Assembly (NCBI RefSeq): GCF_002494345.1
Contig: NZ_NXNI01000001.1
Location: 2,542,001 to 2,606,000 of the forward strand
Source of the DNA: Natrinema ejinorense
GTDB taxonomy: Archaea > Halobacteriota > Halobacteria > Halobacteriales > Natrialbaceae
Length of the DNA stretch: 64,000 nt
Direction of reading: 5' to 3'
Every line of letters starts with the position of its first letter. The first letter of the stretch is position 1. The notes below the pieces were generated by a model, which worked only from the letters and a program-made list of their open reading frames with translations, did no database searches and was not told where the DNA came from. The translations under genes and the position numbers were made by a program. Shown one piece after another: positions 5,395 through 38,701 of the stretch.

Positions 5395-5431
5395 CGACGC
5401 AACCGTTCTACACGCGGAGCAGGCCGAGCGC

Positions 5432-5450: not shown

Positions 5451-5455
5451 ACGGT

Positions 5456-7310: not shown

Positions 7311-7333
7311 CGCCGGGTGCAATACTCCGGCAG

Positions 7334-8131: not shown

Positions 8132-8164
8132 CCCGTTGACGGGGCTTCTGGCAGTCGAGAGCTA

Positions 8165-8244: not shown

Positions 8245-8294
8245 ACCTGCCACTTCGGCAGGAATTTCACGGTCCTCGCCGTACGACCGGTACG

Positions 8295-8738
8295 ATGTTC
8301 GACACGATCTTGCTCCCGACGGACGGCAGCGAACACGCACGCGCGGCCGCCGAAACCGGTATCGAGCTCGCGGCGGTCCACGACGCGACCGTCCACGTCG
8401 CCTGTGTCGCCGATACTGGCCCGCTGGGTGACCTCCGTCTTCCGGGCGATGCCGCAAGCGCCGAAGACGCGATCCGGGGCCGAGCCCAGGAGTACGTCGA
8501 CGCGATCGTCGAACGAGTCGACGCAGCCGGACTCGCGGTCACCGGGACGGTACTCGACGGGCCACCGGAGGAGGCACTCCTCGAGTACGCTCGCGAGATC
8601 GACGCCGACCTGATCGTCATGGGAACGCGCGGTCGTGGCGGCGTCCACCGGATGGCACTCGGGAGCGTCACCGATCACGTGATCCGATTCGGCGATATTC
8701 CGGTCTTCGTCGCGAACTCGGCGTCACAGCCGGAGTGA
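8295..8738 (+). CDS. Universal stress protein (UspA family)
   Basis: 147 residues. Opens MFDTILLPTDGSEHA, the first Usp strand and loop, and carries GTRGRGGVHRMALGSVTDHV (about 119-138), the ATP-binding signature. Start at ATG 8295 is the usual family start; an upstream in-frame extension runs into the palindromic element and is rejected. Only about 45% similar by eye to the Usp at 2416, so it is a separate family member and not a recent duplicate. Confidence 0.9.
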   Translation: MFDTILLPTDGSEHARAAAETGIELAAVHDATVHVACVADTGPLGDLRLPGDAASAEDAIRGRAQEYVDAIVERVDAAGLAVTGTVLDGPPEEALLEYAREIDADLIVMGTRGRGGVHRMALGSVTDHVIRFGDIPVFVANSASQPE

Positions 8739-8773
8739 GCGTCGCGGTCGCGGACGGCATCGACCGCCGTCGA

Positions 8774-9178
8774 TCACCGCACGATCTCGTTGATCGCCGC
8801 CGTCCGGTGGCCGATCGACCAGCCGATCAGTGCGAGCCCGGCGTAGACCCCACTCGCGGGCAGGACGTACGGCCCGACGATCGACTCGAGCGGGACGCCG
8901 ACCGCGTCGAGTGCGAGCGCGAGCAGCAACGAAATGAGGAAGAGTGCGATCCCGATGTCCGCGAATCGCATGGTGGGCAACTCCTGGGGATCCGCCCGCA
9001 GTCGCCCGATCGAATAAAAGACGAGCGTGTAGCTCACCCAGCCGGCGACGAGCGCCAGCCCGCCCGAAAGCGGTTCGTTGGGAACGTATCGGGGCACCAG
9101 TGAGACGTGGACGGCCACCGTTACGAGTAGCGCACTCCCGAGCAACACGACCAACAGCGGTCGTTGATCTCCGCTCAT
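8774..9178 (-). CDS. Small four-helix membrane protein, unknown function
   Basis: 134 residues with four hydrophobic helices (about 7-26, 38-58, 72-93, 100-120), short loops and no recognisable catalytic motif. It is convergent with the Usp gene, 35 bp away. It shares the strand of the CoaD gene, 75 bp upstream of it. Not assignable to a family by reading. Confidence 0.65.
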   Translation of the reverse strand: MSGDQRPLLVVLLGSALLVTVAVHVSLVPRYVPNEPLSGGLALVAGWVSYTLVFYSIGRLRADPQELPTMRFADIGIALFLISLLLALALDAVGVPLESIVGPYVLPASGVYAGLALIGWSIGHRTAAINEIVR

Positions 9179-9253
9179 TGGCTACGCAGACTGTCTCCCG
9201 AGCTATTATTGTTGTGTCATCGACTCGTTCAGGGCCACACGGCTCGGACAGGG

Positions 9254-9721
9254 CTATTCGAGCACCCGTCCGTGCGCGTCGATCTCGCCGTTCACGATCC
9301 GCGTCGAGGAGATCCGTTCGCCGTCGTCGGCGTAGACGTATGGAGCGACGACCCCCGAGAGCGACTCGAAACCGCGGTCCCTGCGGCGATCGTTGATCGC
9401 CTCGAGTTCGGGGGCCGTTTCGGGAGAGACTACCAGCGCGTCGATCGACGGCTCGTCGGTCGCGATCCCGTACTCGCTCTCGAGGACGCGGAGTTCGACG
9501 TCGCGGCCCCACTCGTCGAGGTCGCGGATAGCGTCCGTCACGCCCCGCGTTCGTTCCTCGAGCGACGGGACGAAGCGGGGTTCGTGGCGCGTCTCGACTG
9601 CCAGTTCGTCGCTGGTCAGGGCGACGACGATGCCGTCCTCGCCGAATCGGAGCGCGTGCTCGAAGAGGGTTCGGTGGCCGTCGTGGAGCGGCCCGAACGT
9701 ACCGGCGACTGCGATTCGCAT
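9254..9721 (-). CDS. coaD: Archaeal phosphopantetheine adenylyltransferase
   Basis: 155 residues, the length of the archaeal PPAT family. It joins AMP to 4'-phosphopantetheine to give dephospho-CoA, the penultimate step of coenzyme A synthesis. Nucleotidyltransferase signature: GTFGPLHDGHR at 7-17, whose DGH corresponds to the HxGH motif, and ISSTRI (about 137-142) corresponds to the second ATP-binding motif. Cytosolic, apparently its own transcription unit. Confidence 0.88.
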   Translation of the reverse strand: MRIAVAGTFGPLHDGHRTLFEHALRFGEDGIVVALTSDELAVETRHEPRFVPSLEERTRGVTDAIRDLDEWGRDVELRVLESEYGIATDEPSIDALVVSPETAPELEAINDRRRDRGFESLSGVVAPYVYADDGERISSTRIVNGEIDAHGRVLE

Positions 9722-23520: not shown

Positions 23521-24780
23521 ATGAGCCAGGAGGCCGCACAGGAGCAATCCGACCGGAAAAAGTACGAGTTCCGGAAGGTCATCGAGGACCTCAAGGACTA
23601 CGACGGCTCCGGAACGCAGCTCGTGACGATCTACGTTCCCGACGACAGACAGATCAGTGACGTCGTACAACACGTCACCCAGGAACACAGCGAAGCGGCC
23701 AACATCAAATCGAAGCAGACGCGAACGGCCGTTCAGGACGCGCTGACGAGTATCAAAGACCGGCTGCGATACTACGATACCTTTCCGCCGGACAACGGCA
23801 TCGTGTTGTTTTCGGGTGCCGTCGACTCCGGTGGCGGCCGGACCGACATGGTCACGAAGGTCCTCGAGAGCCCGCCCCAGCCCATCGAATCGTTCCGCTA
23901 TCACTGCGACTCGGACTTCCTGACCGAACCGTTAGAGGAAATGCTGGCCGACAAGGGCCTCTACGGCCTGATCGTCCTCGACCGCCGCGAGGCCAACGTC
24001 GGCTGGCTGAAGGGCAAGCGCATCGAGCCGGTCAAGTCAGCATCCTCGCTGGTCCCCGGCAAGCAGCGCAAAGGTGGCCAGTCCGCCCAGCGATTCGCCC
24101 GCCTGCGACTCGAGGCCATCGACAACTTCTATCAGGAGGTCGCGGGGATGGCAAACGACCTGTTCGTGCCGCGACGCCACGAACTCGACGGGATCCTCGT
24201 CGGCGGTCCCTCGCCGACCAAAGACGAGTTCCTCGACGGCGACTACCTTCACCACGAGATCCAGGACAACGTCATCGGGAAGTTCGACGTCGCTTACACG
24301 GACGAATCCGGCCTGAAAGACCTCGTCGACAACGCCGAAGACGCGCTGGCCGACGCCGAGGTGATGAAGGACAAGAAGGTGATGGAGGAGTTCTTCGAGG
24401 AGCTCAACGCCGGCGAGCTGGCGACCTACGGCTTCGAGCAGACCCGGCGAAACCTCATGATGGGGTCGGTCGACCGACTCCTGATCAGCGAGGACCTCCG
24501 GAAGGACGTCATCACCTACGACTGTCCCGAATGCGGGGCCACCGAGCGCGAGGTGATCGATCGGCGCAAGTCGATGCCGACCCACACCTGCACCGAGTGT
24601 GGCACCGACGTCGAGGGGTCCGAGGAGGACCGCGAGGACGCGATCGACCACCTCATCGAGATCGCCGAACAGCGTGGCACCGAGACCAAGTTCATCTCCA
24701 CGGACTTCGAGAAGGGCGAACAGCTCCTCAACGCCTTCGGCGGCTTCGCCGGTCTCCTGCGCTACTCGACCGGGGTCTAA
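23521..24780 (+). CDS. prf1: Peptide chain release factor aRF1
   Basis: 419 residues. It recognises all three stop codons and triggers peptidyl-tRNA hydrolysis. NIKS at 61-64 (codon recognition) and GGQ at 185-187 (catalytic) are intact. A C-terminal zinc-ribbon-like segment has CPEC (about 336-339) and CTEC (about 360-363). Start at ATG 23521 matches the usual MS...SDRKKYEFRKVIE opening. A ttttatac only 10 bp upstream is too close to be its TATA box; the AT-richer segment near 23486-23495 fits better. Confidence 0.95.
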   Translation: MSQEAAQEQSDRKKYEFRKVIEDLKDYDGSGTQLVTIYVPDDRQISDVVQHVTQEHSEAANIKSKQTRTAVQDALTSIKDRLRYYDTFPPDNGIVLFSGAVDSGGGRTDMVTKVLESPPQPIESFRYHCDSDFLTEPLEEMLADKGLYGLIVLDRREANVGWLKGKRIEPVKSASSLVPGKQRKGGQSAQRFARLRLEAIDNFYQEVAGMANDLFVPRRHELDGILVGGPSPTKDEFLDGDYLHHEIQDNVIGKFDVAYTDESGLKDLVDNAEDALADAEVMKDKKVMEEFFEELNAGELATYGFEQTRRNLMMGSVDRLLISEDLRKDVITYDCPECGATEREVIDRRKSMPTHTCTECGTDVEGSEEDREDAIDHLIEIAEQRGTETKFISTDFEKGEQLLNAFGGFAGLLRYSTGV

Positions 24781-24845
24781 CCACTCCCTTCGCTCTCGAT
24801 CGGCGAATCGGAACGCTTTCGTTCCGGTTCGCTGTCAGTTATGGT

Positions 24846-25703
24846 ATGCGACGCCGTCAGTTCCTCGCAAGCGGAACAGCCCTCCTCACCGTCGCTCTCG
24901 CCGGCTGTGGCCACCCGCCCGTCGTCCTCGATATGGACGAAGCGACGACAGACGACATCGCGAACGAAGTCTCGATGACGGTCGAGCCCGATTCCGAGGA
25001 GTACTCGGTCGTTTCGTCGGCCCGTGAGAACGGCTCGGCAACGCGGAGAGGGCGGTCCGAACTGTTCGATCGTACCGAGACGGTTCGGGTCGACGACTCC
25101 TTCTACGACGTCTCGGAGACTCGACTCGGGAGCAACGAGGAGACCGTCTACGAACTCCGCATCGATTTCGACCCCGCCGATTCCACGCCCGAGCGCGGCG
25201 AGATCGAATACGGCGACCTCCCCGAGGCGGACCGCCAACGCCTCGATCGACTCTTCTCGGAAGACGACCCGCCGACGCAGGACGGAGACGATATCGGCGT
25301 CGAGTACGGAACCGCCGAGGAGGTCGGGAACGGGTCGGTGTTCGTGCCGGAACCCGAGTACGATATCGTCATCCACGACGGGGATCGGTCCCGAGTCACA
25401 GTCGATTCGCGAACCGCGACCGAGGCCGAGTATCGGTACGAGGTGACCGAAGTCGCGTCCGACGTCGACACGTTCGCCGACCAGGTCCGAGAGCAGTACC
25501 TGTTCACGCTCGAGGGTCTTTCCGACGCCGAAAGGGCGGTCGTCGAGGAGGCGATCGACGGCGGGTACTTCGAAGACGACGACGCCTTCCGGTCGGTGGT
25601 CGACCGCATTCGGGAGCACGAGGGGATAGACGTGGAGGATTTCTACGGGACGTGGCTCCTGGAGTACGAGGGCGTTGCGTATCTCACCTATGTCGAATGG
25701 TAG
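24846..25703 (+). CDS. Tat-exported lipoprotein, paralogue of the 2943 gene
   Basis: 285 residues. MRRRQFLASGTALLTVALAGC is a twin-arginine lipoprotein signal with the lipobox Cys at 21. The mature domain shares with the 2943 protein the segments VFVPEPEYDIVIHDGD and LEGLSDAERAVVEEAIDGG (about 220-240) and the same overall strand/helix order. No catalytic motif is visible. It stands alone, 65 bp after prf1. Function unknown; surface-anchored. Confidence 0.78.
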   Translation: MRRRQFLASGTALLTVALAGCGHPPVVLDMDEATTDDIANEVSMTVEPDSEEYSVVSSARENGSATRRGRSELFDRTETVRVDDSFYDVSETRLGSNEETVYELRIDFDPADSTPERGEIEYGDLPEADRQRLDRLFSEDDPPTQDGDDIGVEYGTAEEVGNGSVFVPEPEYDIVIHDGDRSRVTVDSRTATEAEYRYEVTEVASDVDTFADQVREQYLFTLEGLSDAERAVVEEAIDGGYFEDDDAFRSVVDRIREHEGIDVEDFYGTWLLEYEGVAYLTYVEW

Positions 25704-25895
25704 GTGAAGGGGTCGAGACCGGAGCGTCGGGTGATTCCGATGTCGTTCGGGACGGGTATCTCCCAAGAGAACAAGCGGTGATGAAACACGCGCCATCGAA
25801 AAACGGCGACCGTGGAAAAACGGCCGTCGTCGCTTTCAGGCACCGCCCATGCCGGAACACAACAGCGTTAACACCACGTCCGTGAACACTCGAGT

Positions 25896-26825
25896 ATGTC
25901 CATTTCGAACCGAGACGTGCTCGTCACGGGTGGTGCCGGGTTCATCGGCTCGCATCTCACCGAGCGCTTGCTCGCGGACGGCGCGACCGTGACGGTCGTC
26001 GACGACCTCTCGAACGGCGAGCCCGACCGCGTGCCCGAGGCGGCCACGTTCCTCGAGGCCGACCTCACCGATCCCGACGCCCTCGAGGGTCACCTCGACG
26101 ATATCGACCTCGTCGTCCACCTCGCGGCGTCGAAACACGTCGACACGGACCGGCCCCACGCCCAGTTCGACGACAACACGCGGATGACCCGCAACATTCT
26201 CGAGGCGATGGCCGAGGCCGACGTGACCGAAATCGCCTACACCTCCTCGTCGACGGTGTACGGCGAGGCCCCCCGGCCGACGCCGGAGGATTACGCGCCC
26301 CTCGAGCCGATCAGCGCCTACGGGGCGAGCAAACTCGCGGATGAGGGCCTACTCTCCGCGCGGGCGCACAGCCACGACCTGACGGTCTGGAACTTCCGAT
26401 TCGCGAACGTGGTCGGGCCGCGCCTGCGGGGAGCGGTGATCCCCGACTTCATCGAGAAACTCCGGGAGAACCCGGAGACCCTCACGGTTCTCGGCGACGG
26501 CCGGCAGGAGAAGTCCTACCTCCACATCGAGGACTGTCTCGACGCGATTCTCCACACCGTCGAGCACGCTGACGACGCGATGAACACGTACAATCTCGGC
26601 ACGCGTACGACGACTTCGGTCGACCGGATCGCAGCCATCGTCGCCGAGGAGTTGGGCGTCGATCCCGAACACGAATACACCGGCGGCGAGCGGGGGTGGA
26701 CCGGCGACGTGCCGAAGATGCGCCTCTCGATCGAGAAGCTCTCCGCGCTTGGCTGGGAGCCCCGCCACTCGAGCGACGAGGCGGTCCGCCGGTCGACGCG
26801 CGAGATCATCGACGAGCTGCAGTAA
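25896..26825 (+). CDS. NAD-dependent sugar-nucleotide epimerase/dehydratase
   Basis: 309 residues, extended short-chain dehydrogenase family. GGAGFIGSHL (about 12-21) binds NAD; TSSSTVYG (about 119-126) and YGASK (about 145-149) supply the catalytic Ser, Tyr and Lys. FRFANVVGPRLRG and the downstream substrate domain resemble UDP-glucose 4-epimerase-like enzymes. It precedes the iron-box-controlled flippase and glycosyltransferase genes by 112 bp, so a role in making a sugar donor for that cluster is plausible but inferred. Confidence 0.88.
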   Translation: MSISNRDVLVTGGAGFIGSHLTERLLADGATVTVVDDLSNGEPDRVPEAATFLEADLTDPDALEGHLDDIDLVVHLAASKHVDTDRPHAQFDDNTRMTRNILEAMAEADVTEIAYTSSSTVYGEAPRPTPEDYAPLEPISAYGASKLADEGLLSARAHSHDLTVWNFRFANVVGPRLRGAVIPDFIEKLRENPETLTVLGDGRQEKSYLHIEDCLDAILHTVEHADDAMNTYNLGTRTTTSVDRIAAIVAEELGVDPEHEYTGGERGWTGDVPKMRLSIEKLSALGWEPRHSSDEAVRRSTREIIDELQ

Positions 26826-26898
26826 GCGCGGCCTCCGTCCTCGTCCGTTCCGATGGAATCTAACTCGAGAGCGACAGTCGAGCCCCTCCGATCCCGTT

Positions 26899-26912
26899 TT
26901 AGGTGGGCTTAA
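26899..26912. promoter_or_regulatory. Iron-box-like operator 1 (imperfect)
   Basis: TTAGG-TGGG-CTTAA, within gTTTTAGGTGGGCTTAAAt. One mismatch from TTAGG-N4-CCTAA. Its right arm runs into TTAAATAT (26909-26916), the TATA box about 25 bp upstream of ATG 26938, so a bound repressor would block promoter recognition. Confidence 0.55.
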
Positions 26913-26937
26913 ATATCTGGCCTCGAGAGGAATCGCT

Positions 26938-28095
26938 ATGAACGACGGGGGGGAGCGATCGAGGTCGGAAGCACCCGCCGACGGCTCCGGGAGCGGCGGG
27001 CTCGCCGGGGCGCTGACCCGCCGTCGACTGACGATTGCGGGAACCGCTCTCGTCGTACTCGGCCTGCTCGTCGCCCTTCGGGAGATCGATCCCCGGACCG
27101 TCGCCGCCGAGATCTCGAGTGCCGATCCGCTCGTGCTCGTGGCGGCAGTCGCAGTGTACGTCGCCTCGTGGCCGCTCAGAGGTCGCCGGTACGGCGACGT
27201 GCTGGCCGCGATCGGCCACCGTGGGGGGACGGCGTTTGCCACGGGAGCCGTCTTCGTCAGCCAGACGGCGAACCTCGTGATCCCGGCGCGGGGAGGCGAT
27301 GCGGTCCGCGCATACGTGATGAACACCTATCGAGACGTTCCCTACACCGCCGGCTTCGCGTCGCTGGCCGTCGAACGGGTGTTCGATCTGGCGACGATCG
27401 CCGCCCTCGCGGGGCTCGCGACGACGTGGCTCGCACTGGGCGGCGCGGCCGGTCCCCTCGAGATCCTCGCGGAGGCCGGCGGCGCGCGGACCGCGCTCGT
27501 CGCTGCAGCCGCCGTGAGTACGGCGACCGTCGGCGTCGGGTTCGTGGTCGTGACGTCCGCTCGAGCCGATCACGGCCTTGGGTCGTGGCTTCGGACGCGG
27601 GTCGACGGTCGATCGCGCCTCGAAGGACTGCTCGAGACGGCGCTCCGATTCGCGGGCGACGTACAGGTGGTCGCCCGGAAGCCGCGAGCGCTGGCAACCA
27701 TCGGGATGGGGAGTCTACTGGTGTGGGTGCTCGACGTGCTCACCGCGGTCCTCGTCCTCGCGGCGCTTGGCAGCGGGCTCGCGGTCGGCCCGCTGCTGGC
27801 GGTCGGAACGCTGGCGGTGAGCGTGGGGAACCTCGCGAAGGTCCTGCCGCTGTCCCAGGGCGGCGTCGGGCTCTACGAGGCCGCGTTCACGGCACTGGTC
27901 GTCGGACTGACACCGATCGGCGCGAGTACGGCCCTGGCCGCGGCGATCGTCGATCACGCACTGAAAAACGGCGTCACGCTGGTCGGCGGTGCCGGTTCGG
28001 TCGCCTCGCTTGGGATTTCGCTTTCCGACGCTGCGGAGTCGAACACGGACGCGACGCGGGGGACCGATACGCTTTTAGGAGAGCCTAAAAAATAG
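26938..28095 (+). CDS. Flippase-like integral membrane protein (LPG synthase TM / COG0392 family)
   Basis: 385 residues with about eight membrane helices. Family features are AARGGDAVRAY-type loop (here PARGGDAVRAYVM, about 119-131) and the late block LPLSQGGVGLYEAAFTALV (about 303-321). In haloarchaea this fold occurs in AglD and in lipid-carrier-related proteins of glycosylation clusters. Start ATG 26938 follows its TATA box by about 25 bp. The 3' end of the gene contains the iron box of the next gene. Inferred role: handling a lipid-linked glycan. Confidence 0.8.
   Translation: MNDGGERSRSEAPADGSGSGGLAGALTRRRLTIAGTALVVLGLLVALREIDPRTVAAEISSADPLVLVAAVAVYVASWPLRGRRYGDVLAAIGHRGGTAFATGAVFVSQTANLVIPARGGDAVRAYVMNTYRDVPYTAGFASLAVERVFDLATIAALAGLATTWLALGGAAGPLEILAEAGGARTALVAAAAVSTATVGVGFVVVTSARADHGLGSWLRTRVDGRSRLEGLLETALRFAGDVQVVARKPRALATIGMGSLLVWVLDVLTAVLVLAALGSGLAVGPLLAVGTLAVSVGNLAKVLPLSQGGVGLYEAAFTALVVGLTPIGASTALAAAIVDHALKNGVTLVGGAGSVASLGISLSDAAESNTDATRGTDTLLGEPKK
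28075..28088. promoter_or_regulatory. Iron-box operator 2
   Basis: TTAGG-AGAG-CCTAA, extended palindrome TTTTAGGAGAGCCTAAAA (28073-28090). It lies inside the last codons of the flippase gene, ending 13 bp before ATG 28103, around the expected transcription start of that gene. Confidence 0.7.
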
Positions 28096-28102
28096 CGGAG
28101 CA

Positions 28103-29263
28103 ATGAGTCAGGATATCTGCGTGATCGTCCCGACGATCCGGGAGTACGAGTGCATGCGCTCGTACTTCGCGAACGCTCGCAACCACGGCTTCGACCTCTC
28201 ACGGTTGCACGTCGTCCTCGTCACCGAGGATTTCTGTGACACCGACGAGATGGAAGCGATGCTCGAGGCGGAAGGCGTCTCGGGCGAGGTCTTCGACGGG
28301 AGCCGTCGCGAGGAGTGGTACGACGACCACGACGTAGCGGAGTACGGCCACGTCGTTCCGGCCGCCAGTCACGCCGAGACGAGCTTCGGCCTGCTCTACA
28401 TGTGGGCCCACGACGAGTTCGACTACGGCTTTTTCATCGACGACGACACGCTTCCCCACGAGGATCAGGACTTCTTCGGGATGCACATGGAAAACATCGC
28501 TTTCGAGGGCGAGATCGAGGAAGTCTCCTCCGACGAACAGTGGGTCAACGTTCTCTACCAGAACGCCGACGACCACGGCCTCTACCCGCGTGGCTACCCC
28601 TACTCGGCGATGAACGAAACGGTCGAAACGGGGACGACCGAGATCGACGGCGGCGACGTCGTCGCCTCCCAGGGACTGTGGACCAACGTCCCCGATCTCG
28701 ACGCCGTCCGCATCCTCATGGACGGCGACCTCGAGGGTCAGGCCCAGACCCGCACCTCGAGCGACGACTTCGGCGACGACTTCGTCGCCGCTCGCGGCAA
28801 CTACCTCACCGTCTGCTCGATGAACCTCGCCTTCCGGCGCGAGGTGATCCCCGCGTTCTACCAGCTGCCGATGGACGACAACGAGTGGGAGGTCGGCCGC
28901 TTCGACGACATCTGGTCGGGCGTCTTCCTCAAACGGGCCTGCGACGTGCTCGGCAAGCGGATCTACAACGGCGCGCCGCTGTGCGAGCACAACAAGGCAC
29001 CCCGGAGCACGTTCGACGACCTCAACAACGAAGTGCCGGGCCTCGAACTCAACGAGCATCTCTGGCGCGTAATCGACGATGTCGGCGGCGACGCGGACGA
29101 CTACGCCGACGTCTTCGAAGCGATGGCCACTGAACTCGCCGACGGCGACTGGGACGCGTACAACAACGGCGCGTTCTTCAACGACGTCGGCGAACACATG
29201 CTCGACTGGCTCGAGTGTCTCTCGGCCCTCGAGCGACCCTCGGCCGTTGTGGGGAATCGATGA
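28103..29263 (+). CDS. Reversibly glycosylated polypeptide (RGP)-like protein / UDP-sugar mutase-like
   Basis: 386 residues. The architecture matches plant RGP/UDP-arabinopyranose mutase: N-terminal CVIVPTIRE (6-14), acidic triplet in FIDDD (111-115), then GYPYS, SQGLWTNVPDLDAVR (about 190-204), CSMNLAFRREVIPAFY and RFDDIWSGVFLKRACD (about 271-286). Plant enzymes interconvert UDP-arabinopyranose and furanose and self-glycosylate; the archaeal substrate is unknown. Flanked by iron boxes on both sides, between the flippase and the iron-binding lipoprotein gene. Confidence 0.82.
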   Translation: MSQDICVIVPTIREYECMRSYFANARNHGFDLSRLHVVLVTEDFCDTDEMEAMLEAEGVSGEVFDGSRREEWYDDHDVAEYGHVVPAASHAETSFGLLYMWAHDEFDYGFFIDDDTLPHEDQDFFGMHMENIAFEGEIEEVSSDEQWVNVLYQNADDHGLYPRGYPYSAMNETVETGTTEIDGGDVVASQGLWTNVPDLDAVRILMDGDLEGQAQTRTSSDDFGDDFVAARGNYLTVCSMNLAFRREVIPAFYQLPMDDNEWEVGRFDDIWSGVFLKRACDVLGKRIYNGAPLCEHNKAPRSTFDDLNNEVPGLELNEHLWRVIDDVGGDADDYADVFEAMATELADGDWDAYNNGAFFNDVGEHMLDWLECLSALERPSAVVGNR

Positions 29264-29275
29264 CTATAAGTACAT

Positions 29276-29289
29276 TTAGGGCAGCCTAA
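29276..29289. promoter_or_regulatory. Iron-box operator 3
   Basis: TTAGG-GCAG-CCTAA in TTTAGGGCAGCCTAAA (29275-29290). The TATA box actataag (29263-29270) lies just upstream and ATG 29295 five bases downstream, so the operator spans the region from TATA to transcription start of the iron-binding protein gene. Confidence 0.75.
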
Positions 29290-29294
29290 AACCC

Positions 29295-30419
29295 ATGACG
29301 AAGGAATACGACTCCGCGGGCCGACGGGCGTTTCTCGCCGGCTCTGCCGCGCTCGGTACGGCCGGTCTGGCCGGCTGTACTGGCCTGATCGGGGGCGAAG
29401 AGGAAACCGAAGAGAACGTCTTCAACCAGATCGGCTCCGGCCGCGCGGGTCGCGACCAGCCGGGCGGGACGCCGATGGCGGACCTCCCCGACCTCGAGGG
29501 GGAACTCCACATCTACTCCGGGCGAAACGAGTTCCTCGTCGGGACGCTCATCAACAGCCTCGTAGACATGTACGACGGGTTCGATGTCGTCGGGCCGCGA
29601 TACAACGAATCCTCGAATCTGGCGAACCAGATCGCCGAGGAGGGGGCGGGAACGGACGCGGACGTCTTCTTTACCGTCGACTCGGCCGCGCTCGGCGAGG
29701 TCGCGAACGAGGGCCTGTCGCGGTCGCTCTCGGACGACGTTCTGGAGATGGTTCCCCAGGAGTTCCGAACCGACCAGTGGGTCGGAACCTCCGGCCGTAT
29801 CCGAACGATTCCGTACAACACGGACGCGTTCTCCGAGAGCGACATGCCGACGAGCATCGACGCCTACACCGACTTCGAGGGCGACCTCGGCTGGGCCCCC
29901 TCCTATGGCTCCTGCCAGTCGTTCGTCACCGCGATGCGGCTGCTCGAGGGCGAGGAGGCGACCCGCGAGTGGCTCGAGGGCGTCGTCGACGCGGGAATCT
30001 CGGCGTACAACAACGAGATGGCGGTCTGTCAGGCCGTCGCGGACGGCGAGATCGACGCCGGCTTCACGAACCACTACTACATCCAGCGCGTTCTCGAGGG
30101 ATCGCCCGACGCACCCCTCGACACCGTGTTTACCGACGGTGACGCGGGCGCCACCTTCGACATCGCGGGCGCAACCGTTATCGAAAACACGGACGTGCCC
30201 GATCTGGCGGAGAACTTCGTCCGACACTTGCTCTCGGCGGAAGTCCAGGAGTACTTCGCGGTCGAAACGTTCGAATATCCGCTCATCCCCGAGGGCAATC
30301 CGGTCGGCGAACTCCCGACGATCCCCGAACTGGACGTTCCGGACATCGACCCGTCCGAACTGTCCGACCTCCAGCCGACGCTGGATCTCATGCGCAGCGT
30401 CGAGGGCATCAACGTCTAA
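29295..30419 (+). CDS. Iron ABC transporter substrate-binding lipoprotein (FbpA type)
   Basis: 374 residues. GRRAFLAGSAALGTAGLAGC gives a twin-arginine lipoprotein signal. The mature protein is a type II periplasmic-binding fold: LHIYSGRNEFLV (about 72-83), FFTVDSAALGEV (about 125-136), RTIPYNTDAF and a TNHYYIQ segment (about 258-264) whose tandem tyrosines match the ferric-iron ligands of FbpA-type proteins. Captures Fe(III) outside the membrane. Transcribed from an iron-boxed promoter, with the membrane glycosyltransferase gene 18 bp downstream. The matching permease is 6.6 kb away. Confidence 0.85.
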   Translation: MTKEYDSAGRRAFLAGSAALGTAGLAGCTGLIGGEEETEENVFNQIGSGRAGRDQPGGTPMADLPDLEGELHIYSGRNEFLVGTLINSLVDMYDGFDVVGPRYNESSNLANQIAEEGAGTDADVFFTVDSAALGEVANEGLSRSLSDDVLEMVPQEFRTDQWVGTSGRIRTIPYNTDAFSESDMPTSIDAYTDFEGDLGWAPSYGSCQSFVTAMRLLEGEEATREWLEGVVDAGISAYNNEMAVCQAVADGEIDAGFTNHYYIQRVLEGSPDAPLDTVFTDGDAGATFDIAGATVIENTDVPDLAENFVRHLLSAEVQEYFAVETFEYPLIPEGNPVGELPTIPELDVPDIDPSELSDLQPTLDLMRSVEGINV

Positions 30420-30437
30420 CGACCCGCCACAGACCTC

Positions 30438-32639
30438 GTGATCCGTGATCCCGTTCACACGTTCCGGTCGGTAGTGTCCGACCGGCAACGCCGTCTCGAC
30501 CTGGCCGCACTCACCGTCGCCTGTCTCGCCGGCGTCGCGGTATTCGTCCTCGCGACGGAGCTCTTTCCCTACCACTCGAGCAACGACGACGAGGGCGTCT
30601 ATCTCCTCCAGGCCGCACTGTTACTCGAGGGGCAACTCGAGATTCACGCCGGCGACCTCGCCGACGCGTTCCGCCCGTGGTTCTTCATCGAGGACGGCGG
30701 CAGACTCTACGCGAAGTACTCGCCGGTCGTGCCCGCGATGTACGCCGTTTCGATCGCGCTGTTTGGCGAGCCACGGGTAACCCTCGCAGCCGTCGCGGCG
30801 GGCAACGCCGCGCTCGTCTACGCGCTCGGCTCGATGGTCTTCGACCGTCGAGTCGGCGTCGTCGCAGCGGCGATCTTCGCCGCCTCGCCGCTGGCACTGC
30901 TGACGTCGTCCGTGTTTCTCCCCTACGCGCCGACGACGTTGCTGAACCTCGTCTTCGCGGTGTGGTACCTCCGGGGGGTCCGCGACGGCCGGCTTCGAGA
31001 CGCCGCCGTGGCCGGCACGGCGATCGGGCTCGCCTTCTTCGCCCGGCCTTACACCGCCGTCCTGTTCGCGGCCCCGTTCATCTGTCACGCGGGCTGGACG
31101 GTTCTGGGCTCCGTTCGGCGTCGCTGGCAGGACCGACGGCTCCGCCCGCTTCCGGATCCCCTTCGGCGCAACGCGGTCACCGCCGCGATCGGAGTCGGGT
31201 TCGTCGGGCTGGCGCTGGCGTACAACGCACGGCTTACCGGCTCGCCCCTCGTCTTTCCCTACGAAGCGTTCGCCCCGCTGGACGGTCCCGGCTTCGGCTA
31301 TCGTGAGATCACCGGCCACTCCCTCGAGTACACGCCGGCGCTCGCCCTCGAGGCGAACGGGGCTGCGCTCTGGTACTTCGCCACGCGGTGGTTCACGGCC
31401 GGCCCGCTCGGGGCGGTCGCCGCCCTGTTCGGGGTGACGGTCGCGTTCCGGCGCTGGCTCGCCGCTCGTCGATCCGACCGCGAACGCGACCACGCTCGAA
31501 CTTCGGGACTCCTCCTGGCCGGACTCCTCGTTTCCGTGCCGCTGGGAAACGTTCCGTTCTGGGGCAACTTCAACATCCACGCGGGGATCGACGACCCGAC
31601 GACCGGGCTGCTCTCGCAGTTCGGGCCGTTCTACCACTTCGACCTGCTCGTTCCGCTCTCGATCTTCGCCGCGTTCGCCGTCGTCGCTGGCTGGCAGCAG
31701 TGGCGCGACGCCGCGGTTCGAGACCGAATCGCCACCGTCGCATCGCCGCGAGCCGCCCGCGCTGTGGTCCTCTCCGTCCTCCTCGTTAGCGTGCTCGTCG
31801 CCGGCGCGGCCAACGCCGCGGTCCTGTCGACGCCGATCGAGCGCAACGCCGCCCATACCGATCGGTTCGAGTCCGCCTACGAGCCCATCGAGGAACGCGA
31901 CTTCGAGAACGCGCTGGTCTTCCTGCCGACGCCGTACGGCCAGTGGCAGGGCCATCCGTTCCAGGCGCTCCGAAACGACCCCGATCTCGACGGCGAGGTC
32001 GTCTACGCGCTCGACGGACCGCCCGAACGGGACTTCGCCGTGCTCGACGCCTATCCCGATCGCACCACCTATCGCTACGCGTATCGCGGTGAGTGGACAC
32101 CGACTCCCAGCGACCGGATCACCGCCCAGCTCGAGGAGCTGTCGGTTCGATCGGGCGAGCGCCTCGAGGGCGAAACCACCGTCGGGATCGCAAACCGGGT
32201 CGATCGGGCGTACGTTCGACTCGAGAACGACGGGGCAGTCGCCAGCGAGACGATCGTGAATCCCGACGACGAACTGTCTATCGCGTGGTCGCTCGAGCGC
32301 GCTGCAGGCTCCGAAACCGATGGGAACGCGAGCGCCGGCGACGGCGGTATCGCTCGGCTGAACGGATCGACGACCGAGACGGTGTCGTTCGACGGGGCCG
32401 ACGAGCTCGTCCTGACGATCACACAGGTCCAGCCGGAGGGGGCGACCCACACCTACCGCCAGGAGATAACCGTCCGGACGACCGACGACGGCGTCGAGGC
32501 GGTCTGGCCGCCCGAACGGACTGCCTGTCCGCTCGTTACCGATTGCGGGGCCGACGGGACCTACCTCCCCGACCGGCCCGACAGCCACAGCGAGTGGGAG
32601 CGCTTCGAGACCCGACTCGAGGCGAGCGAGCCCGAATAG
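30438..32639 (+). CDS. GT39/ArnT-like polytopic membrane glycosyltransferase
   Basis: 733 residues starting at GTG. About eleven helices in the first 460 residues, with an acidic pair in the first outer loop (SSNDDEGVYLLQA, about 49-61), as in lipid-carrier-dependent mannosyltransferase/ArnT (GT-C) enzymes, then a soluble C-terminal domain of about 270 residues outside the membrane. It probably transfers a sugar from a polyprenyl carrier to a surface acceptor. Only 18 bp separate it from the iron-binding lipoprotein gene, so it shares that iron-box promoter. The acceptor is unknown. Confidence 0.78.
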   Translation: MIRDPVHTFRSVVSDRQRRLDLAALTVACLAGVAVFVLATELFPYHSSNDDEGVYLLQAALLLEGQLEIHAGDLADAFRPWFFIEDGGRLYAKYSPVVPAMYAVSIALFGEPRVTLAAVAAGNAALVYALGSMVFDRRVGVVAAAIFAASPLALLTSSVFLPYAPTTLLNLVFAVWYLRGVRDGRLRDAAVAGTAIGLAFFARPYTAVLFAAPFICHAGWTVLGSVRRRWQDRRLRPLPDPLRRNAVTAAIGVGFVGLALAYNARLTGSPLVFPYEAFAPLDGPGFGYREITGHSLEYTPALALEANGAALWYFATRWFTAGPLGAVAALFGVTVAFRRWLAARRSDRERDHARTSGLLLAGLLVSVPLGNVPFWGNFNIHAGIDDPTTGLLSQFGPFYHFDLLVPLSIFAAFAVVAGWQQWRDAAVRDRIATVASPRAARAVVLSVLLVSVLVAGAANAAVLSTPIERNAAHTDRFESAYEPIEERDFENALVFLPTPYGQWQGHPFQALRNDPDLDGEVVYALDGPPERDFAVLDAYPDRTTYRYAYRGEWTPTPSDRITAQLEELSVRSGERLEGETTVGIANRVDRAYVRLENDGAVASETIVNPDDELSIAWSLERAAGSETDGNASAGDGGIARLNGSTTETVSFDGADELVLTITQVQPEGATHTYRQEITVRTTDDGVEAVWPPERTACPLVTDCGADGTYLPDRPDSHSEWERFETRLEASEPE

Positions 32640-32703
32640 TCCGTCGACAGGAGTGCGGTAATTCAGGCACCAACGTTAGGAGCCGACTTCCCGCAGAACG
32701 CCT

Positions 32704-33747
32704 ATGACCGAGAAGCGTTGCGGTCACGTGACGAACAGCAGCGGCGTCGACGAAGTGGGGGCGATCTGTTGCTGGCGGCCCACGTGGAGGGAGACCGACT
32801 ACTGTCTCTGGCACACCGAGCGCGTCGTTCCGAGGAACGAATACGAGCGCAACGCCCCGGAGCCAAACGAACGACTCGACGGGGCGGACTTCCGAGAAAC
32901 GACGTTGAGCGGAGCGTCGTTCCTCGCGGGCCGATCACTCCTCGAGGCGGATTTCACGAACGCAGTCCTCGACGGTGCCGACCTCTCGGAGACGGATCTC
33001 CGGCGGGCCACGTTTCGGGACATCGACGCCCACGGGACGTCGTTCCGGAACGCGAACCTCCACGACGCGGTGTTCGTCTTCGCCGATCTCCGCGGTGCGG
33101 ATTTCCGCGGTGCGAGGCTCTATCGCGCGGGCCTGACCGACGTCCGGCTGAACCTCGAGACGGCGTTCGACGAGCGGTCGGTGTACGAGGACGACATCGT
33201 CGGGTCGCCGCCGAGCGACGAGGGTACCGAACCGGTCGACTCCGCAAAATGGGTGTATCGGGAGCTACAGCGACTGTACGACGAGAACGCGTTTCCGGAG
33301 AAGGTCCACGCGTACTACCTCCGCGAGATGGACCTTCGCCGGAAACAGGCGTGGCGGGTCGGTGCGTACCTCCAGGCGATAAAGCTCGCCGGCTCGCGCT
33401 GGGTCATGCACTACGGGACGAGCCCGTGGCGCGTCGTGGCGACGTCGGTGCTCCTGATTCTCGTCTGTGCCGCGCTGTACCCGCTGACCGGCGGCATTCA
33501 GGAAGTCGGGACGGAGACCGCGGTTACGTACCAGATCGAAGACCCTGCCGAGACGCCGGGCCCTGTTCTCGTTCGAGCGTTCCTCAAGAGCCTCTACTTC
33601 AGCATCATCACGTTCGCCACGCTCGGGTACGGCGACATCCAGCCGGTCGCCGGCTTCGCTCGCGCGATCGCCAGCATCGAGACCCTGCTCGGCTCGGTAC
33701 TGATGGCGCTGCTCGTTTTCGTCCTGACGAGGAGCGTCCACTATTGA
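32704..33747 (+). CDS. Pentapeptide-repeat protein fused to a two-TM potassium channel pore
   Basis: 347 residues. The first 50 residues carry several Cys and His (CGHV, CCW, CLWH) suggestive of a metal-binding knuckle. Residues about 57-150 are pentapeptide repeats of A(D/N)LXX/ADFXX type (GADFRETTLSGASF and so on), which fold as a right-handed beta helix. A linker of about 90 residues leads to TM helix, pore loop with TLGYGD (about 308-313) and TM helix, an Ion_trans_2 channel. The combination is unusual; the repeats could be a cytoplasmic sensor or scaffold. Convergent with the GT2 gene. Confidence 0.85.
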   Translation: MTEKRCGHVTNSSGVDEVGAICCWRPTWRETDYCLWHTERVVPRNEYERNAPEPNERLDGADFRETTLSGASFLAGRSLLEADFTNAVLDGADLSETDLRRATFRDIDAHGTSFRNANLHDAVFVFADLRGADFRGARLYRAGLTDVRLNLETAFDERSVYEDDIVGSPPSDEGTEPVDSAKWVYRELQRLYDENAFPEKVHAYYLREMDLRRKQAWRVGAYLQAIKLAGSRWVMHYGTSPWRVVATSVLLILVCAALYPLTGGIQEVGTETAVTYQIEDPAETPGPVLVRAFLKSLYFSIITFATLGYGDIQPVAGFARAIASIETLLGSVLMALLVFVLTRSVHY

Positions 33748-33844
33748 GCGGCGCTGAACCGCTGACAATCGGTCTTCGGGGGAAGCAGTCGAGCGGGCTG
33801 GGGTGCGTTCGGTCGAAAGGGATCGCCGACGCTCGACTCGGTGC

Positions 33845-34594
33845 TTACTGCGTCGGCCGGTGTGGCAGCTCCCGCAACCGCTCCTCGAGCGAGACCTTGA
33901 CGATCGACCGCGCGATTTCGGCGCCGCCTTTGAGCGGATCGAGTTTCGTCTGGCCGGCTCGTTCGCGGTACTCGATGGGGTGTTCGCGAACGTCGTAGCC
34001 TCGCATCAGCGGGCGGATCAGTAGTTCGGCCGATAGCCCGGTGTTCTCGGTCCACTCGATCGATTCGACGACGTCGCGGCGGTAGGCCCGCATTCCGGTG
34101 GTCGTGTCGTGGACGCGGGTTCCCATGAGGACGCTCGCGATCGCCGCGAACGCGTGGTTACCCAAGCGATTGAATCCCGGCATCGCGTCGGCCCCGTGGT
34201 AGAGCCGGTCGCCGCTGACGACGTCGTAGCCCTCGTTGATCAACGCGAGGAACTCGGGGAGTTGCTCCATCGGGTACGTATCGTCACAGTCGGTCGTCAC
34301 GACGATCGGGCGATCGGGCTCGAGGATCGCCGCGCGCACGGCGACGCCGTACCCCTGCGGTTCTTGCTCGATGACCGTCGCGCCGTGCTCGCGAGCGATT
34401 TCGGGCGTCCGGTCGGCCGAGCCGTCGACGCAGACGACCGCCGCCTTCCCGTCGGCGACGTCCTCGATGTCCGCGAGCACTTTGCCGATCGCTTCCTCCT
34501 CGTTGTAGGTCCCCATGACGACGCTGAGATCGTCGAACGTGTACTCCGCCTCGCCGGTTTCGGTCGTCGTCTCGGTCTGCTCTCCGCTACTCAT
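33845..34594 (-). CDS. GT2 family glycosyltransferase (dolichyl-phosphate sugar synthase-like)
   Basis: 249 residues. GT-A fold: LSVVMGTYNEEEAIGKVL (about 24-41), VVCVDGSADRTPEIA (about 53-67), QEPQGYGVAVRAAI, then VVTTDCDDTYPMEQLPEFL (about 98-116) with the metal-binding Asp residues. GMRAYRRDVV and the absence of membrane helices resemble soluble dolichyl-phosphate glucose/mannose synthases. Makes a lipid-linked sugar donor, probably for the GT39-like enzyme. Its minus-strand TATA box (34612-34625) abuts iron box 4. Confidence 0.87.
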   Translation of the reverse strand: MSSGEQTETTTETGEAEYTFDDLSVVMGTYNEEEAIGKVLADIEDVADGKAAVVCVDGSADRTPEIAREHGATVIEQEPQGYGVAVRAAILEPDRPIVVTTDCDDTYPMEQLPEFLALINEGYDVVSGDRLYHGADAMPGFNRLGNHAFAAIASVLMGTRVHDTTTGMRAYRRDVVESIEWTENTGLSAELLIRPLMRGYDVREHPIEYRERAGQTKLDPLKGGAEIARSIVKVSLEERLRELPHRPTQ

Positions 34595-34627: not shown

Positions 34628-34641
34628 TTAGGTTTGCCTAA
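34628..34641. promoter_or_regulatory. Iron-box operator 4
   Basis: TTAGG-TTTG-CCTAA, extended TTTTAGGTTTGCCTAAAA (34626-34643). It lies directly upstream of the minus-strand TATA sequence aaaatataaat of the GT2 gene, overlapping the BRE position, and 16 bp after the GMC gene stop. Confidence 0.72.
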
Positions 34642-34656
34642 AAGAGAGTGTCGACG

Positions 34657-36294
34657 CTAAACCGATTCGAGGACGTGGTCTCCGGCCTTGAGCGCGAGCG
34701 CCGCGATCGTCAGCGTCGGATTCATCGCCCCGCCGGTGGGGAAGACGCTACTCGAGGCGATCCAGCAGTTCTCGAGGTCGTGGGTCCGCAGGTCGGGGCC
34801 GACGACGCTCTCCGCCGGATCGGTCCCCATCCGGGTCGTGCCCATGTGATGGTAGGCCGGGCCCGTGTTCTCGGGCCCGACCTGCCAGGTGATCTCCGCG
34901 CCGAGTTCCGCGAGGATCCGCGCTTGGATCTCGTTGACGCGCTCGATGGTCCGTAGCGCCCGATCGTCGACCGTCCAGTGGACGTCGGGAACGGGGTTGC
35001 CGCGGTCGTCGGTCCGGTCGGGGTCGAGTCCGACGTAACTGTCCTCCCGTGGGAGTTGCTCGACCAGCCCGCCCATGCCGACGTTGTTCCCGTAGCCCTC
35101 GCGGAGCCGCTCGAGCAGGTCGTCGCCCCAGTCGTCGCCGGTCAGTGCCATCTCGACCGGCGAGGGACCGGCGTAGTTGAAGAACTCGAGTTTGAACGGC
35201 GCGAACTCCTCGTCGGCGTCGTCGTAGAACTGGTGGGACTCGCTGGTCAGGAAGCCGACGTGGTTCTGACGGGTCGGCTCCTCGAGAACCCCGCCCGTCC
35301 CCGCAAAGAGGTGGTCCATGAAGAACCGCCCCACGAGGCCACTCGAGTTCGCGAGTCCGTCGGGGTAGTGCGTCGACTCCGAGAGGAGCAGCAGGCGGGG
35401 CGTTTCGACGCCGCCGCAGGCGACGACGAACGCGTCGGCTTCCTGGCGGTGGCGCTCGTCGTCGGGGGTCGCGTAGACGGCCGCCTCGATCTCGTCGGCG
35501 TCGTGTACGAGACGCTGGACCGGCGCGCGATCGATCACCGTCGCCCCCTTCTCCTCGGCGCGTTCGACGTGGACGGTCGCGTCGTATTTCGCCCCGGAGG
35601 GACAGACCGGCTGGCAGGTGCCATAGCCCACGCAGGCGCTGCGGTCGTCGTACCCCTCCGAGTTGCGCGCGTTCGGAACGGAGTGCATCGCGATCTCGAG
35701 GTCGTCGCAGGCCTCGGCGAACAGCGAGTCGCTGTAGGAGGGCGGAAACGCCGGCATCGGATGTGGCTCCTCTCGGGGCGGCGCGAAGGGATTGTCGTCG
35801 GCACCGGCGACGCCCAGTTCCCGCTCGGCCGCCGCGTAGTACGGTCGGAGGTCATCGTAGTCGATCGGCCAATCCCTGCCGACGCCGCGGGCGCTTCGAG
35901 CGTTGAAGTCGTCCTCGTGGAGGCGCATCACCATTCCCTGCCAGTGGAGCGTCGAACCGCCGACGCCGCGCGCTCGAGCGTGATTGAGCGGATAGAAGCG
36001 GTCGCTCGAGGACGAGTACGCGTCGCGTTCGGGATCGCCGTCCCAGACGGCCGGCCGGTCGTAGAACGGGCGGATCGCCCGCTCCTGTCTGGCGAGCCTG
36101 TCGGCCGGATCGAACCGCGGCCCGGCCTCCAGGATCGCGACCTCGCGACCCGCCTCGGCGAGGCGGTCCGCGACGATCCCGCCCGCGGGCCCCGCGCCGA
36201 TCACGCAGACGTCGGCGTCCGCGACGGGCGTTCGGTCGACAGCTTCCTCAGTGGCGGGCGCCGCCGATTCGGGGGGCGACCGAGCCCCGCTCAC
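34657..36294 (-). CDS. GMC-family FAD oxidoreductase (gluconate/glucose dehydrogenase large-subunit type)
   Basis: 545 residues from GTG 36294. FAD-binding VIGAGPAGGIVADRLAEAG (about 32-50), GVGGSTLHWQGM (about 116-127), CQPVCPSGAKYDA (about 224-236) and the C-terminal catalytic region GPAYHHMGTTRMG (about 478-490) plus NPTLTIAALALKAGD (about 524-538). It oxidises sugar or alcohol substrates and passes electrons to the membrane chain. The GTG start overlaps the stop of the upstream gene by four bases (GTGA), and the frame before it is arginine-rich. With its small subunit it is expected outside or at the membrane. Confidence 0.87.
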   Translation of the reverse strand: MSGARSPPESAAPATEEAVDRTPVADADVCVIGAGPAGGIVADRLAEAGREVAILEAGPRFDPADRLARQERAIRPFYDRPAVWDGDPERDAYSSSSDRFYPLNHARARGVGGSTLHWQGMVMRLHEDDFNARSARGVGRDWPIDYDDLRPYYAAAERELGVAGADDNPFAPPREEPHPMPAFPPSYSDSLFAEACDDLEIAMHSVPNARNSEGYDDRSACVGYGTCQPVCPSGAKYDATVHVERAEEKGATVIDRAPVQRLVHDADEIEAAVYATPDDERHRQEADAFVVACGGVETPRLLLLSESTHYPDGLANSSGLVGRFFMDHLFAGTGGVLEEPTRQNHVGFLTSESHQFYDDADEEFAPFKLEFFNYAGPSPVEMALTGDDWGDDLLERLREGYGNNVGMGGLVEQLPREDSYVGLDPDRTDDRGNPVPDVHWTVDDRALRTIERVNEIQARILAELGAEITWQVGPENTGPAYHHMGTTRMGTDPAESVVGPDLRTHDLENCWIASSSVFPTGGAMNPTLTIAALALKAGDHVLESV

Positions 36295-36836
36295 GACCGT
36301 GGCCCCCGCTGATAGCTTTCGATCCCGCCCGCGTGGCCTTGCGGGTTCTCGATGCCGACCAGTTCCCCGCCCGTCGGCGAGGCGTACAGTGCCACCAGGA
36401 GTTCGTTGACGACGTAGTACCGGACCCGTTGGGCGGTCGTCCCGTCCGGGTTCTCCTCGGCGGTATCGGCGCGGAGTTCCCGGAAGAACCGATCGCGTTC
36501 GGCCACGGACAGCGCCGCGACGCCGTCGGCGTACCACGCGTCGGCGAGTTCGTCCAGTTCCGCGACCACCGCGTCCAGTTCGGCGGCGTGTGCCGGATCC
36601 GCCAGTCGACCCTCGAGGAACCGCTCGACGAACGGTCGCGTCCCGGTAACCGCGCTTGGATAGACGACCTCGGCAGCCGCGACCATCGTCTCCCGAATCC
36701 GTTCGGTGTCGATGTCGGTCCCCGAATCGGTGCCGCTCCCATCGGGAGGCGCTCCTCTGGGAGCGGCACAGCCCGCCAGCGTCCCCCCGCCGAGCGCAGC
36801 CAGCGCGGCGACCGCGTCCCGTCTGGTCAGCTCCAT
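36291..36836 (-). CDS. Gluconate 2-dehydrogenase subunit 3 family Tat lipoprotein
   Basis: 181 residues. TRRDAVAALAALGGGTLAGC is a twin-arginine lipoprotein signal. The rest matches the gluconate-2-dehydrogenase small-subunit family: AAEVVYPSAVTGTRPFVERFL (about 54-74), a YY VNELLVALY core (about 139-149) and the C-terminal GIENPQGHAGGIESYQRG. In bacterial enzymes this subunit accompanies the GMC flavoprotein and carries the Tat signal for export. First gene of the pair, promoter with iron box 5. Confidence 0.85.
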   Translation of the reverse strand: MELTRRDAVAALAALGGGTLAGCAAPRGAPPDGSGTDSGTDIDTERIRETMVAAAEVVYPSAVTGTRPFVERFLEGRLADPAHAAELDAVVAELDELADAWYADGVAALSVAERDRFFRELRADTAEENPDGTTAQRVRYYVVNELLVALYASPTGGELVGIENPQGHAGGIESYQRGPRS

Positions 36837-36845: not shown

Positions 36846-36859
36846 TTAGGTAAACCTAA
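36846..36859. promoter_or_regulatory. Iron-box operator 5
   Basis: TTAGG-TAAA-CCTAA. The minus-strand TATA box agtataag (plus 36863-36870) lies just upstream, ATG 36836 ten bases downstream, so the operator covers the transcription start of the dehydrogenase operon. Confidence 0.75.
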
Positions 36860-37066: not shown

Positions 37067-38701
37067 ATGAAATCTCTGCTCTCACGACGACGCGACACGA
37101 CCGACGGACCGACGCTCGGGCTGTTGTTCCTGTCCGGTGCCATCGCCGTCATCGTCCTGTTCCCGCTTACGTACCTCCTCTTCGAGGCGATGACCGTCGA
37201 CACGGGCCGGCTCTGGGAGATGCTCGTCCGCCCGCAAACCGCGACCATCGTTACGAACAGCCTCCTGCTGATGACGGGCGTCACGGTCCTTTCGGCGCTG
37301 CTCGGCGTCCCGCTGGCGTGGCTCACCGTCCAGACGGACCTCCCGTTTCGCCGCTTTTGGTCCGTCGTCGCGGCCCTCCCGCTGGTCATCCCGAGCTACA
37401 TCGGCGCGTTCGCGTTCGTCTCGGCGTTCGGGCCACAGGGCGAGTTCCAGTCGATCCTCGAGCCACTGGGGATCCAGCGGTTGCCCGAAATCTACGGCCT
37501 CCCCGGTGCAACCCTGGTCATCACGCTCTACACCTATCCATACGTCTACCTGACGGTCCGGGCCGCGTTGCTGTCGTTCGACACGACGCTGCTCGACGCC
37601 GCCCGCACCCTGAACCACGATACGTGGACGGCGTTTCGCCGCGTGACGCTCCCACAGATCCGGCCCGCCGTCGTCGCCGGGGCGTTGCTCGCGGCGCTGT
37701 ACGCCGTCTCCGACTTCGGGACGCCGGCGATCATGCGACTGCCCGTGTTCACCCAGCAGATCTACGTCGAATATCGCTCCTTCGGCCGGGACTACGCGGC
37801 CTTTCTCTCGTTGCAACTGCTCGTCATCGTCCTCGTCGTCCTGGTCCTCGAGTGGTGGGTCCGACCCGACCGGACTGTCCAGGGCGACGGGTCGGAGGGG
37901 GCGGACGGCCCCGTCGTGGAACTCGGGCGATGGCGCTGGCCGGCGACGCTCCTTCCCGCCGGCGTGACCGGCATCGCGTTGCTGGTGCCGCTGTGGATCC
38001 TCGGCCTCTGGCTCGTGACCGCCGATCCGGACGCACGGCCCGAGCTCGCGTTCGAACTCGAGTACGCGCTGAACTCCCTGCTGGTGGCCGGCGCGGCCGC
38101 GTTCGTCGCCGTCCTGGTCGCCCTGCCGGTCGCGTACGTCGCGGCCAGAGACGAGTCGCCGCTGTCGACGCTGTTCGAGCGATCGACCTACGTCGGCTTC
38201 GCCGTGCCGGGTATCGTACTCGGGCTCGCGCTCGTCTCGTTTGCGACGACCTACGAGACCCTTCGACAGTCGTACGGCCTTACCGCCCTCCCGGCGCTCT
38301 ACCAGACGATTCCGCTGTTGGTGTTCGCCTACGTCGTCCGATTCATGCCCCAGGCCGTCGGCTCGATCCGGACGACGACGCTACAGGTCGATACGAAACT
38401 GGTCGAAGCTGCACACACGCTCGGCGAGACGCCGCTGCGGACGTTCCGAAAGGTGACGCTGCCGCTCATCGCCCCGGGCGTGACCGCCGGCGCGGCACTG
38501 GTCTTCCTGACGACGATGAAGGAACTCCCGGCAACGCTGCTCCTTCGGCCGACCGGCTTCGAAACCCTCGTCACGATCATCTGGAAGGCACAGGGCGAGG
38601 CGTTCTTCCAGTACGCCGTCATCCCCGCACTGCTGTTGCTCACCGTCTCCGGGCTCTCGCTGCTCGTCCTCCTCACCCAGGGCGGTCGGGAGGGGCTGTA
38701 A
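37067..38701 (+). CDS. Iron ABC transporter permease (FbpB type)
   Basis: 544 residues, about twelve membrane helices in two homologous halves. Each half carries an EAA-type ATPase contact loop: LLDAARTLNHDTWTAFRRVTLPQI (in two parts, about 175-198) and LVEAAHTLGETPLRTFRKVTLPLI (about 445-468). This is the fused permease of ferric-iron uptake systems and should work with the FbpA-type lipoprotein at 29295. No ATP-binding subunit follows. No iron box was found directly upstream; the nearest is the divergent one at 36846. Confidence 0.88.
   Translation: MKSLLSRRRDTTDGPTLGLLFLSGAIAVIVLFPLTYLLFEAMTVDTGRLWEMLVRPQTATIVTNSLLLMTGVTVLSALLGVPLAWLTVQTDLPFRRFWSVVAALPLVIPSYIGAFAFVSAFGPQGEFQSILEPLGIQRLPEIYGLPGATLVITLYTYPYVYLTVRAALLSFDTTLLDAARTLNHDTWTAFRRVTLPQIRPAVVAGALLAALYAVSDFGTPAIMRLPVFTQQIYVEYRSFGRDYAAFLSLQLLVIVLVVLVLEWWVRPDRTVQGDGSEGADGPVVELGRWRWPATLLPAGVTGIALLVPLWILGLWLVTADPDARPELAFELEYALNSLLVAGAAAFVAVLVALPVAYVAARDESPLSTLFERSTYVGFAVPGIVLGLALVSFATTYETLRQSYGLTALPALYQTIPLLVFAYVVRFMPQAVGSIRTTTLQVDTKLVEAAHTLGETPLRTFRKVTLPLIAPGVTAGAALVFLTTMKELPATLLLRPTGFETLVTIIWKAQGEAFFQYAVIPALLLLTVSGLSLLVLLTQGGREGL

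Follow-up and report, generated by a model that had tools for sequence, protein, structure and literature searches.

Glycosylation in archaea has mostly been studied on S-layers and archaella. In the haloarchaeal AglD, AglR and AglS systems, a GT2 glycosyltransferase loads dolichyl phosphate (Dol-P), a flippase-like protein takes part, and a membrane transferase acts outside. The same kinds of parts occur in an island of Natrinema ejinorense, where they surround the gene for a ferric-iron-binding lipoprotein. We analysed this island within a stretch of 64,000 nucleotides (hereafter the window) and compared it with related haloarchaeal loci.

Genes in the window were called by Pfam and NCBIfam scans, and promoters were searched for the palindrome TTAGG-N4-CCTAA, referred to here as the iron box. 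The 5'-most gene of the island encodes a UDP-glucose 4-epimerase-like SDR protein (25896-26825, plus strand; Pfam Epimerase, E 1.5e-55), which has a probable role in sugar-nucleotide supply and lacks an iron box. Upstream of it, at 24531-25796, long frames overlap on both strands (390 aa on plus, 339 aa on minus) without a Pfam match. A box with one mismatch, TTAGGTGGGCTTAA (26899-26912), lies 25 bp 5' of the ATG (26938) of a flippase-like membrane protein (26938-28095, plus; PF03706 and TIGR00374). The perfect box TTAGGAGAGCCTAA (28075-28088) is located 14 bp 5' of the ATG of an RGP/GT75 protein (28103-29263, plus; PF03214, E 7e-19), a probable NDP-pyranose/furanose mutase as judged from its match to MtdL. 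Only 5 bp separate the perfect box TTAGGGCAGCCTAA (29276-29289) from the ATG of an FbpA-type ferric-iron-binding Tat lipoprotein (29295-30419, plus; RR at 10-11, Cys28, GSG linker motif at 47-49). Its gene forms an operon with that of a GT39-like GT-C membrane glycosyltransferase carrying PMT_2 and the C-terminal beta domain DUF7846 (30438-32639, plus).

The GT39-like gene is separated from the GT2 gene by a pentapeptide-repeat/ion-channel gene (32704-33747) that has no counterpart among the 62 related loci. The GT2 protein (33845-34594, minus) scores 407 bits against the NF041391 profile for dolichyl-phosphate hexose transferases (curated cut-off 375), and a perfect box, TTAGGTTTGCCTAA (34628-34641), lies 33 bp before its start. 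Next to it are genes for a GMC-family oxidoreductase (34657-36294, minus) and its partner, a Gluconate_2-dh3-like (GDH3) Tat lipoprotein (36291-36836, minus). The perfect box TTAGGTAAACCTAA (36846-36859) is situated between GDH3 on the minus strand and an FbpB-type fused ABC permease on the plus strand (37067-38701; BPD_transp_1, E 2e-26). Profile scans and a PDB match thus confirm the gene identities proposed in the preliminary description (epimerase, flippase-like, RGP, GT39-like, GT2 and iron-binding lipoprotein), and the box positions agree with its assignment of own boxes to three glycan genes (flippase, RGP and GT2) and of the lipoprotein promoter to the fourth (GT39). Its statement that glycan and iron genes share the same operators holds for a conserved box-controlled set but not for the epimerase, and its gene list, correct in its members, lacked FbpB and the GDH3/GMC pair (34657-36836), which is also box-controlled.

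Across the whole genome (4.48 Mb), 26 perfect TTAGG-N4-CCTAA sites were found versus 2 for the reversed control. Perfect boxes elsewhere in the genome precede a DtxR-like gene and siderophore-uptake genes, including those for siderophore-binding proteins, which supports the name iron box. DtxR-like genes are present in the genome, and the DtxR-family gene at C1:700786 (minus strand) has a box upstream. In the window, 5 to 33 bp separate each box from the start codon downstream of it, a position that would fit repression at putative operator sites. At the 62 related loci and the window, a box with at most one mismatch close to the gene start was scored at 59/63 RGP, 53/57 FbpA, 36/38 GT2, 22/25 flippase and 14/19 GDH3 genes, and at 18/404 other genes. 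Six control palindromes gave zero hits at RGP, FbpA and flippase genes and at most one at GT2 (63 loci). The one-mismatch form ending in CTTAA recurs upstream of the flippase gene in related loci. None of the GT39 genes in the 63 loci has its own box, and the epimerase has none in the window or at the other 14 family members in related loci. The palindromic operator of a DtxR-type regulon is found at promoters both in the window and in its relatives, and we are highly confident that an iron-box regulon joins iron import and glycosylation.

To obtain the comparison loci, genome contigs were scanned with the RGP protein, which yielded 62 haloarchaeal loci from many genera, or 63 with the window. 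Among these 63, RGP is present in all (by selection), GT39 in 60, FbpB in 58 and FbpA in 57; without the window, the last three counts are 59, 57 and 56. GT2 was found in 38 loci, GMC in 31, FbpC in 28 and the flippase in 25, and unrelated flanking families each occur in at most 14 of the 63. Gene order is kept across the 62 loci while the flanks are scrambled, and FbpB directly follows FbpA on its 3' side in many relatives. More variable are the flippase and the epimerase, which are missing from some islands, the epimerase adjoining the island 5' in some lineages and 3' in others. About half of the loci retain the GMC/GDH3 pair beside the island, and many islands lack it. The closest named RGP relatives (89-93% identity) are mostly from Natrinema. 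Conservation of the neighbourhood across haloarchaea had been proposed as a check of the preliminary description: all four core genes occur together in 53/63 loci (some of the remaining loci are cut by contig ends), and a conserved iron-box-controlled set in 62 related loci speaks strongly against a neighbourhood shared by no relative.

RGP was found in 309 of 392 class-level genomes and 65 of 84 genera, and GT39 (E up to 1e-40) likewise in 309/392 genomes and 65/84 genera. The two genome lists, compared by eye, agree wherever compared, and the 20 listed negatives are identical. Among 40 genomes chosen from one family, 20/20 RGP-positive and 0/20 RGP-negative ones carried GT39. Since five genera (g1, g6, g8, g13 and g15) hold both RGP/GT39-positive and -negative genomes, the two genes were gained or lost together several times. 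For the 18 positive genomes with coordinates listed for both RGP and FbpA, the distance between these two genes is 35 to 325 bp. In one genome (G206), RGP and GT39 are both present in two copies, and each RGP copy adjoins a GT39 copy. In nine genomes, several of them Haloferax, the island stretch lacks GT2 and the gene lies elsewhere; a box (perfect or with one mismatch) is found close upstream in 9/9.

An FbpA-like protein is still present in 18/20 RGP-negative genomes. At 19 FbpA places from such genomes, FbpA is accompanied by FbpB and in most cases by perfect iron boxes, and RGP, GT39, GT2 and flippase genes were all absent. Because FbpAB exists without any glycan gene, the glycan genes are an optional add-on: they nearly always lie beside FbpA or its permease, whereas FbpAB often stands without them, and glycan genes distant from FbpA or FbpB were seen only at broken contigs or in MAGs. 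At loci L125, L127 and L129-L142 a second FbpAB type occurs that lacks glycan genes and is often preceded by two or three iron boxes spaced ~30 and 100-140 bp.

The lipoprotein in the window has a ferric iron-binding protein as its best PDB match (E 9e-54) and keeps the YY motif, so that both the FbpA family and its tyrosine ligands are recognisable. Its permease partner, FbpB, is encoded in the window. An orthologue of the ATPase FbpC (70% identity) lies past the window end, ~39 kb beyond the island (C1:2617953-2619032), with its own perfect box 35 bp before the start. Together, these proteins are predicted to form an FbpABC importer that binds and transports Fe3+.

For the RGP protein, a relationship to the MtdL/UAM family is indicated by matches to structures of MtdL, a GT75 NDP-pyranose mutase (E 1.5e-23). 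Across 63 sequences, residues D113-115, R163, D198, S239, R266, D269 and H296 show conservation of 95% or more; they match the catalytic residues Asp109-111 (DDD), Arg159, Asp195, Ser228, Arg257, Asp260 and His287 of MtdL. The MtdL substrate-site residues Asp87 and Gln229 are not kept and correspond to His90 and Met240 in a phmmer alignment, both conserved in the haloarchaeal set. Changing either Asp87 or Gln229 nearly or fully abolishes MtdL activity (PMC9937993). As these two residues differ, the specificity or even the activity of RGP may differ as well, and we classify it as GT75-like only; judged from its sequence, mutase chemistry is likely.

Among the marks of a GT39 protein mannosyltransferase proper, the GT39-like protein shows only the Pfam match to PMT_2 (E 3e-8), and protein O-mannosylation is a candidate activity. 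A sequence search against solved structures returned nothing useful for this protein; a fold search with a structure modelled from 46 sequences (pLDDT 88.9) succeeded. The best fold matches were oligosaccharyltransferases, ALG9, ArnT, Pmt4 and mycobacterial Emb, all of them GT-C enzymes, with ArnT giving the highest TM-scores, and in this model the protein folds as GT-C. The first outer loop carries an acidic motif with invariant N49, D51 and E52, to which a putative role can be assigned by analogy with GT-C enzymes.

The best solved relative of the epimerase is GalE-1 (E 1.4e-86). In Haloferax volcanii, HVO_0655 (GalE family, +12.7) and HVO_1859 (UPF0104, +11.6) are among the proteins most induced by iron starvation, each increasing about 12-fold, and offer possible functional parallels to the island (PMC11349517, Table 1). 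We considered them as orthologues of the epimerase and the flippase and dropped this assignment, because searching near relatives with the flippase gives an AglD-like protein instead. The nearest Haloferax match of the flippase-like protein lies in a longer, AglD-like frame. Seven genomes, including several from Haloferax, yielded a single flippase match each; it is always part of a long open frame, and in three genomes it immediately follows a GT2 domain, the arrangement known from AglD.

Between the lipobox Cys28 and the start of the domain at about residue 66, the FbpA linker has only six invariant residues in 57 glycan-type proteins (G47, S48, G49, R53, G58 and P65), and their surroundings vary. 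GSG is present in 57/57 glycan-type FbpA proteins and missing in 18/19 FbpA proteins from glycan-less genomes. The exception, L124 (G087, 5315-9293), is an FbpA of the glycan-type clade that has GSG in a genome without RGP and GT39. Frames resembling a lysine/ornithine monooxygenase and a glycosyltransferase lie close to this FbpA gene. The GSG contrast follows a single deep split in the FbpA tree and hence counts as about one event; together with L124, this weakens the motif as proof of an acceptor, and we regard GSG as a candidate acceptor site. A GSG-like stretch in the GDH3 lipoprotein of the window is not conserved. With an invariant GSG...R behind the lipobox of FbpA and a GT-C transferase fold for GT39, a glycosylated anchor is plausible.

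We favour, with moderate confidence, a model in which an iron-repressed island couples the FbpABC importer to a glycosylation line that is membrane-based and lipid-linked. When iron is sufficient, a DtxR-family repressor would occupy TTAGG-N4-CCTAA at the promoters, and the island genes would be released from repression as iron falls. In the direction of flow that we infer, the epimerase and the GT75 enzyme would generate a sugar nucleotide of an unusual kind, with the sugar probably in furanose form, and the GT2 enzyme would load this sugar onto dolichyl phosphate. The PF03706 protein would then help the loaded sugar across the membrane, and the GT-C enzyme would transfer it outside. The acceptor would most likely be tied to the importer, with FbpA as first choice given the invariant GSG beside its lipid anchor. 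A glycosylation line of the Dol-P type is probable, and FbpA as its acceptor is a serious but tentative possibility. The most specific version, dedicated iron-repressed O-glycosylation that places a furanose on the GSG beside the FbpA lipid anchor and is needed for function or stability at the salt-exposed surface in most haloarchaea, is rather doubtful; it would give a nutrient importer its own substrate-specific glycosylation module. The data suggest a special sugar on the iron-uptake machinery, or on the surface around it, that is made only when iron is short.

Alternatively, a general surface glycan or S-layer sugar could be altered under iron limitation, with FbpA being a neighbour and not an acceptor. 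In its GT2, flippase and GT-C parts, the line is similar to Dol-P-sugar addition of the AglD/AglR/AglS type, and many known haloarchaeal glycans sit on the S-layer. However, RGP and GT39 flank FbpA in nearly all loci examined, a linkage that a general S-layer pathway would not need, and we consider this explanation unlikely. Following the idea of an iron-binding glycan in the preliminary description, the product could be a surface polymer or glycolipid that itself binds iron and hands it to FbpA; this would call on the co-regulation with an Fe3+ importer and on GMC and GDH3, which could oxidise sugars to iron-binding acids under the same box. Yet the conserved set contains no recognised polymerase or chain-length gene and many islands do without GMC/GDH3, making this idea quite improbable. 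That glycan and iron genes are functionally unrelated and adjoin by chance or through shared promoters, as FbpAB without glycan genes in other genomes might indicate, is hardly credible in view of the order conserved across 62 loci with scrambled flanks, the boxes kept after relocation, and the joint gain and loss.

If the coupling of importer and glycosylation line is correct, the island would represent a nutrient-specific, iron-switched use of protein or surface glycosylation that is inherited with the iron importer. Roughly four in five of the sampled haloarchaeal genomes carry the island; a testable role is offered for at least five gene families that lack characterisation, and the question of how haloarchaea take up ferric iron becomes concrete. 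In the open literature other than the main haloarchaeal iron-regulon studies, we found no earlier description of an iron-linked glycosylation island, and its novelty is provisional.

In comparison with known systems, the importer shares with FbpABC importers (FbpA/HitA/FutA) the FbpA family, the YY iron-ligand motif, a fused FbpB, an FbpC ATPase and iron-box control, but its FbpA is a haloarchaeal Tat lipoprotein flanked by RGP and GT-C genes, and a box-controlled form without glycan genes also exists. As in haloarchaeal DtxR-family regulons (SirR/Idr/FerR), the palindromic box also precedes siderophore-binding-protein and DtxR-like genes; here, in contrast, the set with predicted iron repression via DtxR includes glycosylation genes. 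RGP has the DDD motif, nucleophilic Arg, Asp base, His metal ligand and Arg phosphate ligand of GT75 enzymes (MtdL, plant UAM, reversibly glycosylated polypeptides), differs at two substrate-site residues, and is linked to iron uptake instead of an antibiotic or the plant wall. The GT2 protein is related to ArnC by sequence and GT39 has a GT-C fold close to those of ArnT and Emb, which recalls the ArnC/ArnT and actinobacterial arabinofuranosyl systems (Emb, AftD), although the lipid carrier is presumably archaeal and the acceptor would not be lipid A or arabinogalactan. Compared with AglD/AglR/AglS, finally, the island uses different genes, is under iron control, and probably handles a different sugar and acceptor.
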